Made by a program: the position numbers and the translations under genes. From IMG/VR virus record IMGVR_UViG_3300033149_002500, positions 1-21,963 of that record: DNA of 21,963 nucleotides; one strand, 5' to 3'. The notes beneath the pieces are model-generated. The model did not search any database. It was not told the DNA's origin and was given only the letters and a program-made list of their open reading frames with translations. This document shows, one piece after another, positions 7,816 to 21,730 of the stretch. How positions within the stretch are numbered: the first letter of the stretch is position 1; each line of letters begins with the position of its first letter. This DNA comes from a virus.

Positions 7816-8961
7816 TTATTCCTCTAAATTACTTTTACCTTGTAAAATATTAGTTGCTTTTTGACTTAAACCTTTTATTCCACTCGGACTTCCAAGCACC
7901 GGTTCTTCTACCATTAAGTTTTCTGAAATTCCGATCATCGGTTTTTTCTCTTCTATCCCCGGTACTCTTTCTTTACTAATAACAATTTTTCTTGATATAT
8001 TTTCTATCGCTATCGGAATATGAGCATTCGCATAATCCATTAGCTTTTTAAAAATCTCAAAATTAACATCTGAATCAATAGCGTAATCAACAATTTTTTG
8101 TATAAAAGCAGTATTCGCTCCTCTATTAAGCTTTGGCGTTTTTCCTCTTAAAATCTGCTGTATCGCTTTTGAAGCTTCAGACATTAACTCCAAATTTACT
8201 GTCTCTTTACTCAAAGCCATTCTAATTTCCTCTTCTTCAAACGCACCGTGTTTTAAAATCTGCTGAATTAACCATTGCTGATTTAATTGAGCAGACAAGT
8301 CCGGTCTCTTTAACAGCATCATCAACGCATTTTCTCTTTTCTTGGCTTTAGCTTCATTCGCAGCAATTTCAGCAGAGCCGGCAGAAATCTCTATTTCCAG
8401 CTCTGGAGCTTTTTGAACTTCATCTCTCCTCAATTCGTCCCACTCAACCCCAGTTTCTCCGATCATCTTAACCATCATCTTTTCTGTCATATGCTCTTTT
8501 AATCCCCACGCATATCTTTCTCCTAACCTTTCCCAAGCTTCACGATAAGATTTATTATACAGCCCTAATCTATCAGCAACCTGCTGTAGATTTCCAAAGT
8601 AAATTCCAACCTTTTCGGTTTCTTCTCCAGCCCCTTGAGCTTCAGGCGTAATCCCGGTTTTCCTTCCTAAAAAGCTGTCCATAAAAGCAATCAAATCAAT
8701 CGTTCCTGAAATCTCTGGCGTCTCAAAAGTATAAATTCCGCTGCTAATTGAACCTTTTGAAGTATCAGCCCTTACCAATCCGTCTGGTCTCCAATACAAC
8801 TCAGACGGATCAGGGAATATTTTAGGATCATACGCTCTCTGTAAATAATTTCTTTTCTGTCTATTCTCCAACGCCTGATTAAACAAAGTGTCCATCGCAT
8901 CAGCAATCGGTCTAACATCATCACACGGAGCTTTTGACCAGAAATTTCCCGGATCTTCGTG
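7816..8961 (-). pseudogene. Portal protein, C-terminal part in a shifted frame
   Basis: Continuation of the portal protein in the -1 frame relative to the N-terminal part. The frame opens just after a TAG (8962-8964) and reads HEDPGNFWSKAPCDDVRPIADAMDTLFN onward (shown in parts: HEDPGNFWSKAP, then CDDVRPIADAM). It continues through YDPKIFPDPSELYWRPDGLV and a long helical region (VADRLGLYNKSYREAWERLG). Phage portals have a matching stretch in which N-F-W, D-D-x-R-P-I-A-D and F-P-D-P-x-E-L-x-W follow each other, so this is the second half of a single gene and not a separate protein starting at the MDTLF methionine. The last ~60 residues are a flexible Pro/Gly-rich tail. Either the gene is broken or the sequence has an error at about 8960. 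Confidence 0.75.
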
Positions 8962-9725
8962 CTATATTCAAAGAGCAAATAAAATTTTTCGCCTTCATAA
9001 TCCATCACCCATTCCACAAACCTATAAATCGGCTGTCCCACATAAGTATTGCTATCCAGATCCAATCCCAACTGCTTTAACCGAGCTGACTTTGATCTCC
9101 ATAAATCTTCATTCCTTTTATAATCCTCATCAGAAAAAGCTTTTACCAATTTATTAACTTGGTTCGGCTCATATAATTGAGATTTGATAAGATCAGCTTT
9201 AGTCCTAAAAATATTATCCTGTCCACAGAAAAGATGTTTCTCTAAATCTCCACCGCCCATCGGTTCGCAATGAAAGTCCTCGTGATCCACCACTTCTAAA
9301 TAACTCCTATATTTAGGATCTGACTCTGCAAAAATTTTAAAAGTCGCTCTACCAGAAAAACAGGCCAGTTTTTTAGCCCATCTATCTTTTTGAGCCCAGT
9401 TTCCACGTCTTGGAGATTTTTCTATCTGCCACGCTGCTGAAACTTTTTGAGCAACTTTTAAATCAGCAATATCTTTATAGCCGTAAGTTATTACGGGCGG
9501 ATCGTCTATCTTTGACATCAACGTATCAACAAACCCGGACATTACAGGCAAGGGCACAGCAAACCTTCCCTTCGGCACTTTTATTTTTCGTCCCTGATAA
9601 AACTCCTCATTCTTCCTGATTTCCTCTAATCGTCCCTTTTTAAATTTAACACTTGTCTCATATTGCTTAATTGCAATATCTACAAGTTTATTCGCAAATT
9701 GTTCTGGTAAATGTTTTATTGGCAT
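8772..9725 (-). CDS. Portal protein, N-terminal part, frame lost near 8960
   Basis: Portal of the DNA-packaging vertex. The start was set at the ATG at 9725 (MPIKHLPEQFANKLVDIAIK); an upstream TTG at 9755 lies inside a hairpin and is unlikely. Early features are a helix followed by the segment RKNEEFYQGRKIKVPKGRFAVPLPVMSG, DTLMSKIDDPPVITYG, and DRWAKKLACFSGRATFKIFAESDPKYRSYLEVVDHEDF (given in parts). Meaningful sequence runs to about VEWVMDYEGEKFYLLFEYST (near residue 255). The frame then reads into unrelated Arg-rich residues before a stop at 8772. The matching downstream sequence is in the -1 frame from 8961. Comparison with remembered portals suggests a few tens of residues are also missing at the junction. 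No SD precedes the ATG; a stem-loop ends 7 nt upstream. Confidence 0.78.
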   Translation of the reverse strand: MPIKHLPEQFANKLVDIAIKQYETSVKFKKGRLEEIRKNEEFYQGRKIKVPKGRFAVPLPVMSGFVDTLMSKIDDPPVITYGYKDIADLKVAQKVSAAWQIEKSPRRGNWAQKDRWAKKLACFSGRATFKIFAESDPKYRSYLEVVDHEDFHCEPMGGGDLEKHLFCGQDNIFRTKADLIKSQLYEPNQVNKLVKAFSDEDYKRNEDLWRSKSARLKQLGLDLDSNTYVGQPIYRFVEWVMDYEGEKFYLLFEYSTKIREISGQKLRVMMLDRLLMRWTLCLIRRWRIDRKEIIYRERMILKYSLIRLSCIGDQTDW

Positions 9726-9732
9726 ATTAAAA

Positions 9733-9790
9733 AAGGCGGACAACGCAACAGCCAACCAAAAAACTGATTAGCTTCTGCGTTGCCCGCCTT
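9733..9790 (-). terminator. Terminator-like stem-loop in the portal leader
   Basis: A 15-bp stem with one wobble position joins AAGGCGGACAACGCA (9733-9747) to TGCGTTGCCCGCCTT (9776-9790) with a 28-nt loop. In the transcribed minus sense it is followed directly by six T, as in Rho-independent terminators, and then after only three bases by the portal ATG at 9725. It lies about 35-90 nt downstream of the expected start of the 9831-9859 promoter. It may be an attenuator or a translation-controlling leader; the long loop makes strong termination less certain. Confidence 0.6.
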
Positions 9791-14475: not shown

Positions 14476-14676
14476 TTATTTAGGTTTTTTTGGTTGGTTT
14501 TTTACTAATACATAATCCCCATTAGTAGGGTCTTTGTAAAAGACATAACCATCTTGTAATCTATTTTCAACAACTGTTTCATACCAACTTAGAGGGGCAT
14601 AGAACCTTTGTAATTCTGTTATTCTTATTTCTTTTTTATTTTTCTTTTCTTTTTTCATAGGTTTTCTTTTAGCCAT
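14476..14676 (-). CDS. Small protein with duplicated N-terminal leader, unknown function (66 aa)
   Basis: Function unknown. The core reads IRITELQRFYAPLSWYETVV, then RLQDGYVFYKDPTNGDYVL, a small aromatic-rich alpha/beta unit, and it ends KNQPKKPK. The first codons spell MAKRKPM, produced by a 23-nt sequence that also occurs at 14897-14919, where the neighbouring gene begins. A second in-frame ATG at 14658 (MKKEKKNKK) is an equally possible start. The identical leader in two otherwise unrelated genes suggests a local duplication. Confidence 0.55.
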   Translation of the reverse strand: MAKRKPMKKEKKNKKEIRITELQRFYAPLSWYETVVENRLQDGYVFYKDPTNGDYVLVKNQPKKPK

Positions 14677-14677
14677 T
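14655..14677. repeat. 23-nt direct repeat, copy 1 (copy 2 at 14897-14919)
   Basis: An exact 23-nt match on the same strand, 242 bp apart. In the minus sense it contains ATGGCTAAAAGAAAACCTATG, read here as the start MAKRKPM. In copy 2 the same bases also encode the last residues WLKENL and most of the stop codon of the 78-aa gene. A direct repeat flanking one small gene (14688-14900) could allow its loss or duplication by recombination. Confidence 0.75.
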
Positions 14678-14687
14678 TTGCTTGGGT

Positions 14688-14900
14688 TTATTTATTAGTT
14701 GTTCTATCTTGCCATCTATCGCCAGTTTGCCAATTATCCCAATAAACTGGCGGTGTTGATGCTTTTTTATATTCTCCTAAACAAGAAGGACAAATATAAC
14801 AATTCAATTCTTGAAAGAAATAGTTGGTTGGTCGTCCGCAAAAAGCACATTTATTAAAGGATTCGCTTGTTGAAAAGGTTTTCGTGTTTAGTTCAGTCAT
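14688..14900 (-). CDS. Small zinc-ribbon protein (70 aa)
   Basis: Probable zinc-binding protein. Two knuckles are visible, CAFCGR and CPSCLG, about 18 residues apart, a four-cysteine ribbon spacing, followed by a Trp-rich tail (VYWDNWQTGDRWQDR). The start is placed at the ATG at 14900, where ATGA overlaps the TGA of the upstream gene. An upstream ATG at 14918 would add MAKRKP from the 23-nt repeat and cannot be excluded. Zinc ribbons in small phage proteins often bind nucleic acid or host polymerase, which is family knowledge, not shown here. Confidence 0.65.
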   Translation of the reverse strand: MTELNTKTFSTSESFNKCAFCGRPTNYFFQELNCYICPSCLGEYKKASTPPVYWDNWQTGDRWQDRTTNK

Positions 14901-15133
14901 AGGTTTTCTTTTAGCCATTGTTGTAAGAAGTTCTCAATATCTTTTTTAAATTCTTTCGCCCATTTATCTTTTATCTTTGATTTTGTTTTTAGGTTTCCTT
15001 TACTTGTAAAAAATCGTTTGGCATTATAGAAATTATTACTCCAAATATCCCATAAAGTTATCCCTTCCTTAATTTTCTTTTCGTGAGTTTCTTCTATTTT
15101 CTCTTTAATTGTTTTCTTTTGTTTTTTAGGCAT
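14897..15133 (-). CDS. Basic helical small protein, unknown function (78 aa)
   Basis: Not recognised. The N-terminus is strongly Lys/Glu-rich (KKQKKTIKEKIEETHEKKIK). A central aromatic stretch follows (ITLWDIWSNNFYNAKRFF), then a basic helix and a terminal amphipathic helix (KDIENFLQQWLKENL). High positive charge suggests contact with nucleic acid or an acidic partner, inferred from composition only. Its last codons lie inside the 23-nt repeat and its TGA overlaps the next ATG. Confidence 0.6.
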   Translation of the reverse strand: MPKKQKKTIKEKIEETHEKKIKEGITLWDIWSNNFYNAKRFFTSKGNLKTKSKIKDKWAKEFKKDIENFLQQWLKENL

Positions 15134-16489: not shown

Positions 16490-16492
16490 GTT

Positions 16493-16517
16493 CCCGGCGT
16501 TAAGCCGGGATTTTTTT
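16493..16517 (+). terminator. Rho-independent terminator shape on the plus strand
   Basis: CCCGGC (16493-16498), a five-base loop, GCCGGG (16504-16509), A, then seven T (16511-16517). The T-tract lies 3' only on the plus strand, so it would stop rightward, antisense transcripts. No plus-strand gene is seen before it. It abuts the TAA of the minus-strand 128-aa gene. Confidence 0.65.
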
Positions 16518-17198: not shown

Positions 17199-17320
17199 AA
17201 TGATTTTAATTTTCTTTCTTTTTCTTTTTTATATTTTTCTTTTTCTTTTATTTTGTTTGATTAATATTTTGTTTGTGCTGTTCATTTTCGTGAACACCCC
17301 CTGTTCATTTTCGTGAACAC
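17199..17320. promoter_or_regulatory. Tandem dyads beside an AT-rich tract: operator or replication origin candidate
   Basis: Two exact copies of TGTTCATTTTCGTGAACA lie at 17279-17296 and 17302-17319, 23 bp apart in the same orientation, each a dyad with arms TGTTCA/TGAACA. Next to them, 17205-17275 is almost purely T with scattered C on the plus strand. The dyads end right at the stop codon of the winged-helix gene (17321). Tandem iterons plus an AT-rich element near an initiator-like gene is the usual layout of a theta origin; paired operators for the same protein are the alternative. Confidence 0.5.
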
Positions 17321-17710
17321 CTATATCCAACCAAGTCCTTCTATAAAAACCTTGCCATTTTTCTCTTTTTTACTGAATTCTAAATCTTTTACTTTTTCGG
17401 TTAATCTAACATACAAACTTCTATCTGGGGCTCTAAAAACTTTAATATAACCTGCTTTTTCTATTTTCTTAACCCGAGAAGTAATTGCTCCTTTACTTTT
17501 AATTCTTAACAAAGGCATTTCTTTTATCAGATGATGATAATTTATCCAAGTATAGCGATAACTTGTTCCACCCTCTTTTATTTCCAGTTGTCTAATTTTT
17601 TTATCGTCCGCCTGACACCATGCCTTTAAATAGTCCAGAATTGCCGCATCAATCAAATCTAATTTGGTTTTATTCAGTGCTACTTGGTTGATAAAAATAA
17701 AGTATTTCAT
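17321..17710 (-). CDS. Winged-helix protein, replication-initiator-like (129 aa)
   Basis: Likely DNA-binding. The sequence LIDAAILDYLKAWCQADDKKI is followed by SYRYTWINYHHLIKEMPLL, then SKGAITSRVKKIEKAGYIKV as a recognition helix and a wing (RAPDRSLYVRLTEKVKDL). This is a winged-helix pattern like the N-terminal domains of phage replication initiators and related regulators. It is shorter than full initiators, with no second domain. Two tandem dyads follow its stop codon within one base, so it may bind them; that link is inference from position. ATG start; a competing 44-aa frame overlaps the first 41 nt. Confidence 0.65.
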   Translation of the reverse strand: MKYFIFINQVALNKTKLDLIDAAILDYLKAWCQADDKKIRQLEIKEGGTSYRYTWINYHHLIKEMPLLRIKSKGAITSRVKKIEKAGYIKVFRAPDRSLYVRLTEKVKDLEFSKKEKNGKVFIEGLGWI

Positions 17711-19843: not shown

Positions 19844-19868
19844 AAAAGGCGTCTGATAAACAGACGCC
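19844..19868 (-). terminator. Rho-independent terminator at the end of the lysis module
   Basis: Minus strand: GGCGTCTG (19868-19861), a five-base loop, CAGACGCC (19855-19848), then TTTT (19847-19844). Perfect 8-bp stem. It follows the second holin-like gene stop by 27 nt. The T-run is short, so efficiency may be moderate. Confidence 0.75.
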
Positions 19869-19895
19869 CCGCACATATTCTATTACTTACATCTC

Positions 19896-20096
19896 TTATT
19901 CTCCTTTTCTCCATTCACGAATAGCATTTATCAAAACAGATAAAATACCAACCACCACTGGAGTTGCTTCTCCAAAGTCCAGTTTAGCCAACCCTTCTAA
20001 TAAATACAAAAGAGCAACCGCACCCCCAGCAATCAAAGCACCTTTTCCGATTTTAATTAAGCTTTCTTTATCAAATTTATTCTTTACTTGAGCCAT
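19896..20096 (-). CDS. Holin-like membrane protein (66 aa)
   Basis: Probable holin or small lysis-associated membrane protein. After a basic start (MAQVKNKFDKESLIKIG) comes a hydrophobic helix (ALIAGGAVALLYLLEGLA), a short loop with KLDFGEATP, a second helix (VVVGILSVLINAIREW), and a charged end RKGE. Two short membrane helices with a charged C-terminus is the usual small-holin layout. ATG 20096 chosen; an upstream TTG at 20114 also has a GAGAGG before it. It directly follows endolysin, supporting the role. The exact holin family is not identified. Confidence 0.68.
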   Translation of the reverse strand: MAQVKNKFDKESLIKIGKGALIAGGAVALLYLLEGLAKLDFGEATPVVVGILSVLINAIREWRKGE

Positions 20097-20168
20097 AATA
20101 CCTTTTTTCGCCAAAAACCTCTCAAAATGGCTTCTGGCTTGAATAAATTTTTAAAAACGACCTTTAAA

Positions 20169-20594
20169 TTAAATCTTAAAACTCTTTGGCAAATACTTTC
20201 TATATTTACCAAATTTATAACAAACCCAATCCATTGCCCTTCCTTTTTTAAACTGCTGGCACATAACCCTTACTGCTTTTTCAGGATTATTCAACGCTTC
20301 TTCCGGACTTATAATGTTTCTATACCACCAATCATTAAATTGACACAATCCATAATCTGTCGTGCCATCTCTGTTCCGGTTTATCGCTCTGGGATTTAAA
20401 CCGCTTTCGCATTTAATTACAGCAACCAAAATCTCTTCCCACGCTCGGCTCAATCCTTCCTCTCTGGCAATTGTCCTAATCATTATTTCCATTTCCATTC
20501 TTTCTTTCCATCTCAAAAGTTCCAGTAATCTCCTTAATAGATTTATTTTTGAAACAATTTCTTTTATTTTGTTTTTTATTTCTTTTGCTGTCAT
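20169..20594 (-). CDS. Endolysin, lytic-transglycosylase-like (141 aa)
   Basis: Cell-wall-degrading enzyme. The catalytic domain begins with ILVAVIKCESGLNPRAINRN, where Glu63 in C-E-S-G-x-N-P is the expected acid of SLT-type transglycosylases, followed by DGTTDYGLCQFN (the GLxQ motif) and a helix ending AVRVMCQQFKKG, then DWVCYKFGKY. A helical, charged N-terminal ~50 residues precede it. No signal peptide, so release depends on holins such as the two neighbours. Start set at ATG 20594; the upstream TTG at 20615 lies in a stem region. A GC-rich inverted repeat ends 10 nt before the ATG. Confidence 0.82.
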   Translation of the reverse strand: MTAKEIKNKIKEIVSKINLLRRLLELLRWKERMEMEIMIRTIAREEGLSRAWEEILVAVIKCESGLNPRAINRNRDGTTDYGLCQFNDWWYRNIISPEEALNNPEKAVRVMCQQFKKGRAMDWVCYKFGKYRKYLPKSFKI

Positions 20595-20604
20595 TTTTAT
20601 TTTT

Positions 20605-20674
20605 GGGAGGGGCAAGTCCCTTTATGCAAGTATAGGCGTAGAGCCCTGTCAAATTTTTTTGAACCGCCCCTCCC
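20605..20674 (-). other. GC-rich inverted repeat before endolysin, enclosing a -35-like box
   Basis: GGGAGGGGC (20605-20613) and GCCCCTCCC (20666-20674) are perfect nine-base arms 52 nt apart. Between them, on the minus strand, is TTGACA (20652-20647), followed by TATACT only 12 bp downstream, too close for a standard promoter. Either a weak promoter lies inside the loop or the arms control endolysin translation, as the stem ends 10 nt before ATG 20594. Confidence 0.5.
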
Positions 20675-21059: not shown

Positions 21060-21296
21060 TTAAGATAATTTATTTTTAATATCTCTTATGTCTTCTCTAA
21101 TTTCAATTAACTCATCTCTTATATGCTGGATATGATTATCAACCTTTTGGTTTAACAACATCAATTGAAATTTCACTTCTTCTTTATTATTGTTATTTTT
21201 TTTATTTTTCAACCACTGAAAAAATTCTTTGATAAAGAAAAGAAAAATTATTCCTACCGCTCCTAATTGTAATAATTCTGGATTTGGACTTGACAT
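21060..21296 (-). CDS. Holin-like protein with one anchor and coiled coil (78 aa)
   Basis: Possible holin or holin-associated protein of the BhlA/UviB or XhlA type. N-terminus outside (MSSPNPELLQLG), one transmembrane helix (AVGIIFLFFIKEFFQWL), a basic stop-transfer run (KNKKNNNNKEE), then a coiled coil (VKFQLMLLNQKVDNHIQHIR, ELIEIREDIRDIKNKL). One anchor plus a cytoplasmic coiled coil of this length is the BhlA layout. Family call is from layout, not a verified match. The gene is preceded by the folded element 21337-21469. Confidence 0.65.
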   Translation of the reverse strand: MSSPNPELLQLGAVGIIFLFFIKEFFQWLKNKKNNNNKEEVKFQLMLLNQKVDNHIQHIRDELIEIREDIRDIKNKLS

Positions 21297-21336
21297 ATAT
21301 TTTTGTTTAATTTATTTTTAAATTAAGGATAAAAAT

Positions 21337-21387
21337 CATTCGGCAGAATCCCTTTAGGTTTGTTTGCCGAATGTTCCTAAAGGGATT
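21337..21387 (-). promoter_or_regulatory. Attenuator-like pair of mutually exclusive hairpins
   Basis: Minus-sense order A1-B1-A2-B2. A: AATCCCTTTAGG with CCTAAAGGGATT (21376-21387 and 21347-21358), 12 bp perfect. B: CATTCGGCA with TGCCGAATG (21365-21373 and 21337-21345), 9 bp perfect, followed by ATTTTTA. B has terminator form; A would prevent B. This is the layout of a transcription attenuator before the 78-aa holin-like gene. Confidence 0.55.
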
Positions 21388-21437
21388 TTGCTTTTAGAGA
21401 AGAGGGCGGGGGGGTTGACTTTTGAACTGTTTGCCAT
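21354..21437 (-). CDS. Possible 27-codon leader peptide
   Basis: ATG at 21437, TAA at 21354. AGGGAGGAGA immediately precedes the ATG, a strong SD though close. The peptide begins MANSSKVNPPALFSKSK and its stop codon lies inside arm A1/A2 of the adjacent hairpin pair. A short translated ORF overlapping alternative hairpins is typical of leader-peptide attenuation. Chance is possible; 27 codons is short. Confidence 0.4.
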   Translation of the reverse strand: MANSSKVNPPALFSKSKIPLGTFGKQT

Positions 21438-21469
21438 TCTCCTCCCTGCTCTCTTCCCTAAAAGCAAAA
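21386..21469. repeat. 22-bp inverted repeat with 40-nt loop in the divergent intergenic region
   Basis: Arms 21386-21407 and 21448-21469 match at 20 of 22 positions, beginning TTTTGCTTTTAG. The loop holds a run of seven G (21408-21414 area), the SD and start of the 27-codon ORF on the minus strand. Beside it, ATTATATAAT supplies TATAAT on both strands for divergent starts. It could be a regulatory RNA fold, a replication or packaging site, or a bidirectional operator. Confidence 0.6.
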
Positions 21470-21494
21470 TATATTATATAATTTTCAAAGAACT

Positions 21495-21692
21495 ATGTTT
21501 CAAAAAATCTTTAAAATTATTTTTCTTCCAATTACTTCTTTTCGGAAACTTCCTTTTGAAAGAAAATGTCTTTTGCTAATCACCCTTGCTATTTTGATAG
21601 GAATTGCGTTTTATTGCTGGGATGTATGGGAGAAACAAATGTATTTTAAAGAGCAGTCTCAATGGTGGAACGAAATTCCGTCTCACAAATAA
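21495..21692 (+). CDS. Lone plus-strand membrane protein, possible moron gene (65 aa)
   Basis: The only convincing rightward gene. A basic N-terminus (MFQKIFKIIFLPITSFRKLP) precedes one transmembrane helix (CLLLITLAILIGIAFYCW, about 29-46) and a polar tail ending QWWNEIPSHK. A TATAAT box lies about 20 nt upstream, leaving a very short leader with no SD. Being opposite to all neighbours, with its own -10 and an inverted repeat over its 3' end, it resembles a moron (an extra gene with its own signals). Single-pass phage membrane proteins can block superinfection or act in lysis; neither is shown. Could be non-coding, but codon pattern and helix look real. Confidence 0.5.
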   Translation: MFQKIFKIIFLPITSFRKLPFERKCLLLITLAILIGIAFYCWDVWEKQMYFKEQSQWWNEIPSHK

Positions 21693-21730
21693 TTATCTCT
21701 TCTTTTTAGGCGGAATTTCTTCCCACCATT
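21661..21730. repeat. Inverted repeat joining the 3' ends of two convergent genes
   Basis: Arms 21661-21680 and 21711-21730 match at 18 of 20 positions, loop 30 nt. Each arm is the end of a coding region, giving WWNEIP on the plus-strand gene and WWEEIP on the minus-strand gene. It can also fold as a hairpin on both transcripts, with a T-rich tract after it on the plus strand, so it may act as a terminator. Confidence 0.7.

Follow-up and report, generated by a model that had tools for sequence, protein, structure and literature searches.

An orphan candidate RNA element with three competing helices at the entry of a probable phage lysis cassette

The stretch of DNA analyzed here (the window) is 21,963 bases long. 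It is a fragment of a virus record, as a near-identical contig (L028) extends past its left end into more genes. For the same reason, a circular genome that would place the element described below right after the tail gene is ruled out: L028 runs beyond position 1 into other genes. Nearly all genes are on the minus strand, where a probable lysis cassette accompanies genes for a terminase, a capsid protein, a Rad52-like protein, and an exonuclease; several of the small proteins were named by their look. Compared with L028, the 776-aa tail gene (25-2355) keeps residues 1-78 and 438-776 and differs in the middle, a module swap, probably in a receptor-binding protein. The portal gene (8772-9755) is interrupted; relative to the open copy in contig L003, the window lacks 76 nt, with a frame change. 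The capsid protein matched none of 395 Bacteroidota genomes, a result that is uninformative on the host.

The probable lysis cassette comprises hol78, two small ORFs, an SLT-type transglycosylase (20169-20615, minus), and a 72-aa membrane protein (19896-20114, minus). It ends at an intrinsic terminator (19868-19848, minus; the whole rest of the cassette occupies 19848-20615), and a promoter-like site lies directly past this terminator. The first gene of this probable cassette, hol78 (21060-21296, minus), encodes a 78-aa protein with an N-terminal membrane span followed by a coiled coil, both recognized by eye, and its match to a PHROG holin family is weak (E = 0.0015). The only likely plus-strand gene in the window, o65 (21495-21692), is predicted to encode a 65-aa single-span membrane protein. 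Its start context is the best among 102 plus-strand ATGs, and its codon score is the highest of 33 plus-strand ORFs yet falls under those of all 23 reference genes. GC skew near the element and o65 climbs to about zero from -0.15 to -0.5 on either side. We consider o65 a probable gene. If so, the element sits in a 198-nt intergenic gap between divergent genes, and the functional RNA may be that of either strand. When o65 is ignored, the gap becomes 396 nt, well beyond any other that separates minus-strand genes (the next is 152 nt).

Three helices can be drawn in this gap. Two of them, perfect stems of 12 and 9 bp that interlock, had been pointed out in a first-pass annotation of the sequence, and both are present as described. 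The 12-bp stem (21347-21358/21376-21387) is the core of helix B (21343-21391), which extends to 16 pairs on the plus RNA. The 9-bp stem (21337-21345/21365-21373) forms helix C (span 21337-21373), with 11 pairs on the plus RNA including one G-U. On the minus strand A-TTTTT-A follows immediately 3' of helix C, and on the plus strand a T-rich tail follows helix B. The third and largest, helix A (21385-21414/21441-21470), was absent from that annotation and extends beyond its coordinates. Helix A has 30-nt arms and a 26-nt loop, with 26 of 30 positions Watson-Crick paired (87%) and 29 of 30 paired on the plus RNA when G-U is included. Its 3' arm on the minus strand shares 7 nt with the extended 5' arm of helix B. 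The octamer TGTTTGCC occurs just twice in the window, in an arm of C (21361-21368) and in the loop of A (21428-21435); the copy in the loop is a possible additional pairing partner for the other arm of C.

Within 220,344 nt (14 records), helix A has no counterpart among hairpins with 25-nt arms of 85% or higher complementarity, and its estimated energy is -40 to -45 kcal/mol. The window has no perfect stem of 12 bp or more with a loop of up to 40 nt other than helix B, but such a stem appeared in 13 of 200 shuffled windows, so helix B by itself is just mildly unusual. Interlocked perfect stems of 9 bp or more, in contrast, were absent from all 200 dinucleotide-shuffled versions of the window, and the pair is unique to the element in 460,765 nt of window and fetched loci, where each record was counted once, without its copies or sub-loci. 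The 191-nt region from 21290 to 21480 folds at -60.4 kcal/mol on the minus strand and -69.8 on the plus strand, with z scores of -7.42 and -6.69, respectively, which no shuffle equaled on either strand (0/200 each). Helices A and B depart from Watson-Crick pairing at five positions, each of the G-U/A-C type, and none of these clashes on both strands. Across A, B, and C, five of the six non-Watson-Crick positions form G-U on the plus RNA and one on the minus RNA, a bias that is not significant (P of at least five = 0.11). The Rfam search of the window returned no match over the gathering cut-off; the matches below it were generic hairpin models.

The helices compete. With A present, C is favored over B by 1.25 kcal/mol on the minus strand and 2.25 kcal/mol on the plus strand (37 C), whereas shortened leaders unable to form A favor B, by 2.74-3.08 kcal/mol (minus) and 5.10 kcal/mol (plus); these are nearest-neighbor estimates without kinetics, and differences of 1-2 kcal/mol are inside their error. 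Folding of successive prefixes gives A, then A+B, then A+C for a growing minus transcript, and C, then B, then A+C for a growing plus transcript. By calculation, mutually exclusive helices thus decide the last hairpin. The first-pass annotation held that only one of B and C can form. For the full-length stems this stands: the linkers (21346, 21359-21364, and 21374-21375) measure 1, 6, and 2 nt, and such linkers cannot span the 12- and 9-bp stems of an H-type pseudoknot. A trimmed B/C pseudoknot may still form. The helices, their exclusiveness, and their near-equal energies are features of the molecule as calculated, and the chain in which A excludes B and B excludes C is a switch-like anatomy, better supported than the earlier reading knew.

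That reading had gone further and proposed a leader-peptide attenuator, in which translation of a 27-codon ORF with a strong Shine-Dalgarno (SD) sequence controls a terminator. The ORF exists (MANSSKVNPPALFSKSKIPLGTFGKQT, 21437 to 21354, minus), has GGAGG upstream, and has its stop inside the 12-bp stem. Although GGAGG is present, it is a weak signal here, as just 3 nt separate its end from the ATG and helix A takes it up in pairing. No SD match of at least 5 nt precedes any of the 24 window ORFs of at least 90 aa, and among 13 related loci there are 0 to 3 per locus, of 7 to 21 ORFs each. An SD was found at 3 of 35 named starts (exo, o61, and o55), with AGGAGG on the small cassette genes o55 and o61. 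Starts in this genome instead have an A-rich context, the preferred bases being A at positions -3 and -6 and T at position -1. A start model was built on 32 starts, with o359 and rad52 excluded as uncertain and hol78 and the 27-codon ORF reserved as test cases; leave-one-out scores of the training starts ranged from -6.2 to 6.6. The start of hol78 scores 5.0, equaled or exceeded by 6 of 399 other minus-strand ATGs (symmetric background), and conforms to the start grammar of the genome. The 27-codon ORF scores -5.9, with a lower value at only one of the 32 training starts, and is matched or beaten by 66% of the 399 other minus ATGs; when the background is made symmetric, 159 of the 399 do so. 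Its codon score, -0.382, is in the range of the 33 plus-strand ORFs, as expected of a spurious ORF, and outside that of the 23 reference genes (0.056 to 0.233). Judged by these signals, the ORF is probably not a gene. A comparable A-rich, SD-less start context is described for Flavobacterium (PMC6847099), and the Bacteroidota-like context is a hint of host that is suggestive only.

When a ribosome-sized mask is moved along the 27-codon ORF, helix B arises only with codons 9-11 (Pro-Pro-Ala) covered; masking codons 1-8 or 12-18 yields C, and masking codons 19-28 yields neither B nor C. The Pro-Pro pair at codons 9-10 would thus be placed as control codons of an attenuator should be, at the deciding stall position, but these codons derive from a C-run that forms helix A.

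Helix C followed by ATTTTTA had been likened to a terminator, a comparison that proved weak. Using a hairpin-and-T-tail score (d; devised for other bacteria), helix C on the minus strand scores -35.5 and helix B on the plus strand -8.0 at best, versus 33.7, 7.2, and 45.3 for the clear terminators of this phage at 9788-9735 (minus), 19868-19848 (minus), and 16492-16510 (plus). Measured against the terminators of this genome, helix C is thus a poor one. The very strong minus-strand terminator at 9735-9788 overlaps the portal gene at its listed start, and translation of that gene therefore probably begins at a more internal position. The strong terminator at 16492-16510 is directed along the plus strand, though both flanking genes are on the minus strand.

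No promoter was established at the element on either strand. A TTGACA-17-TATTTT site on the plus strand (21290-21318) scores 10/12, and the element region holds 10 promoter matches versus 7.2 in shuffles. The Bacteroidota promoter consensus, TTTG-N17-23-TANNTTTG, occurs twice in the window (1.64 expected) and not at the element; loose TANNTTTG and TATAAT words occur nearby.

Searches turned up no homologs for the element, hol78, or the 89-aa ORF upstream, so that no helix draws support from covariation. An exact 20-mer across C and B occurs in no stretch of viral_contigs, the element had no match in phage records, and of 18 related records, 5 shared no more with it than short stretches of 12-21 nt. 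A match to an Aeromonas plasmid ParM gene (96 query bases, 74.5%) covers the first part of o65 and not the helices, and was attributed to chance. A host repeat or mobile palindrome was likewise considered: a 20-mer from one arm of helix A occurs in four genome_contigs stretches, but the complementary arm is near none of them, again pointing to chance. The closest lysis cassettes are in loci L024 (transglycosylase 61% identical) and L008 (40%), where the first gene of the cassette trails the preceding gene by 1 nt and 6 nt, respectively, and the leader element is absent. L003 and L028, near-identical to the window elsewhere, end short of the element. A literature search around the element returned nothing relevant, by which absence is not proven. 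The element is an orphan, and no more than a well-founded candidate known from a single example.

Our leading interpretation, which we hold tentatively and at somewhat short of an even chance, is that 21337-21470 is a cis-acting structured RNA leader element just ahead of the lysis cassette. The element would be located in the 5' leader of the hol78 message, the o65 message, or both. Whether A is formed, or is held open or cut, would determine the choice between B and C, and this outcome could set the amount of downstream message made or kept, with no need for a peptide. Cutting is conceivable given that a near-perfect 30-bp stem is an RNase III-type substrate. The strand preference is a slight lean either way, to plus by pairing and to minus by the known downstream genes.

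An unlikely alternative, if one that carries some weight, assigns the function to the plus strand: the structure would belong to the o65 leader or to a small RNA of ~70-80 nt, with a promoter near 21290 and an end at B, antisense to the hol78 leader. The wobble pairs, the 10/12 promoter-like site, the start context of o65, and the value of B on plus RNA as a better terminator candidate (d of -8.0) than C on minus RNA (-35.5) are consistent with it, but the wobble bias lacks significance, promoter matches are near shuffle level, the d of B is under zero, and o65 scores below 23 of 23 reference genes in codon use. Unlikely too, and by our estimate a little more so, is a role at the level of DNA, where a palindrome cluster between divergent promoters would act as an operator, replication start, or cruciform. 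Both strands do fold strongly, and the location between divergent genes and the local rise in GC skew would be expected; a plus-strand gene accounts equally well for the skew change, however, and the motifs of the element do not recur in the window as an operator set. Moreover, the interlocked c-b-c'-b' order is not that of a simple palindrome, and every mismatch in A and B is of a type tolerated in RNA.

We regard as rather improbable that the locus is an RNase III processing site alone, at which A divides late from lysis messages and B and C are stabilizing end hairpins. Helix A, with its 30-nt arms and -40 to -45 kcal/mol, is longer than two helical turns and long enough for such cleavage (which calls for a duplex of ~20 bp or more), and it is just upstream of a cassette that has its own downstream terminator, but the B/C interlock and the near-equal energies are left unexplained. 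The leader-peptide attenuator, by which translation of the 27-codon ORF would select B as antiterminator or C as terminator on the minus RNA, is in our judgment very unlikely. The ORF overlaps A and B, masking of codons 9-11 alone yields B, and AGGAGG is used by two small cassette genes; set against this are the absence of an SD from all 24 long ORFs, the pairing of the ORF's own SD within A, and the start, codon, and terminator scores. What finds support in the proposed layout is its switch-like A-B-C anatomy, and not the peptide or the termination. Least probable of all, if only by a little, is a two-way RNA lysis timer. Here the same overlapping inverted repeats would fold in both the hol78 and o65 leaders, which are mutually antisense, and folding together with RNA-RNA pairing would choose which product is made, the lysis protein or a membrane protein from the divergent gene with a possible opposing action.

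Parts of the favored leader element resemble known systems. Like trp/his-type attenuators, it has three mutually exclusive helices (compare 1:2, 2:3, and 3:4), a short ORF over the first, and U residues after the last. Unlike in those attenuators, B and C interlock and have no common arm (the extended arms overlap by just 3 nt), the SD and start are inside A, the U-tract is weak, and the ORF is without the genome's start and codon signals. Intercistronic RNase III hairpins of the T7 type are also long, near-perfect, and upstream of a gene block, whereas here two interlocked helices are added after A, and cleavage is putative. The arm order b, c, b', c' is that of H-type pseudoknots, although with the short linkers the full stems cannot coexist. 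Structured and possibly overlapping leaders of divergently encoded small membrane proteins are also a feature of type I toxin-antitoxin and phage sar-like loci; in the present case a second RNA, a promoter, and toxicity are hypothetical. A functional element would mean that a phage of a lineage without SD use has an RNA switch bordering its lysis cassette, and folding or processing alone would have to replace the usual ribosome-coupled logic. The case also illustrates that a sequence may seem to show a textbook attenuator if it is read without checking which start and stop signals its genome uses.

Other repeats were identified in the window. Between two genes, a 21-nt sequence that is itself an inverted repeat (GTTCA-TTTTCG-TGAAC) occurs twice without change (17278-17321), resembling tandem operator sites. 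An exact 23-nt repeat (14655-14677 and 14897-14919) coincides with the starts of two adjacent small genes, both of which begin MAKRKPM. Where the ends of o65 and of the 89-aa ORF converge, a 28-nt inverted repeat (21661-21730, 82%) encodes a similar tail on each strand, WWNEIP and WWEEIP.
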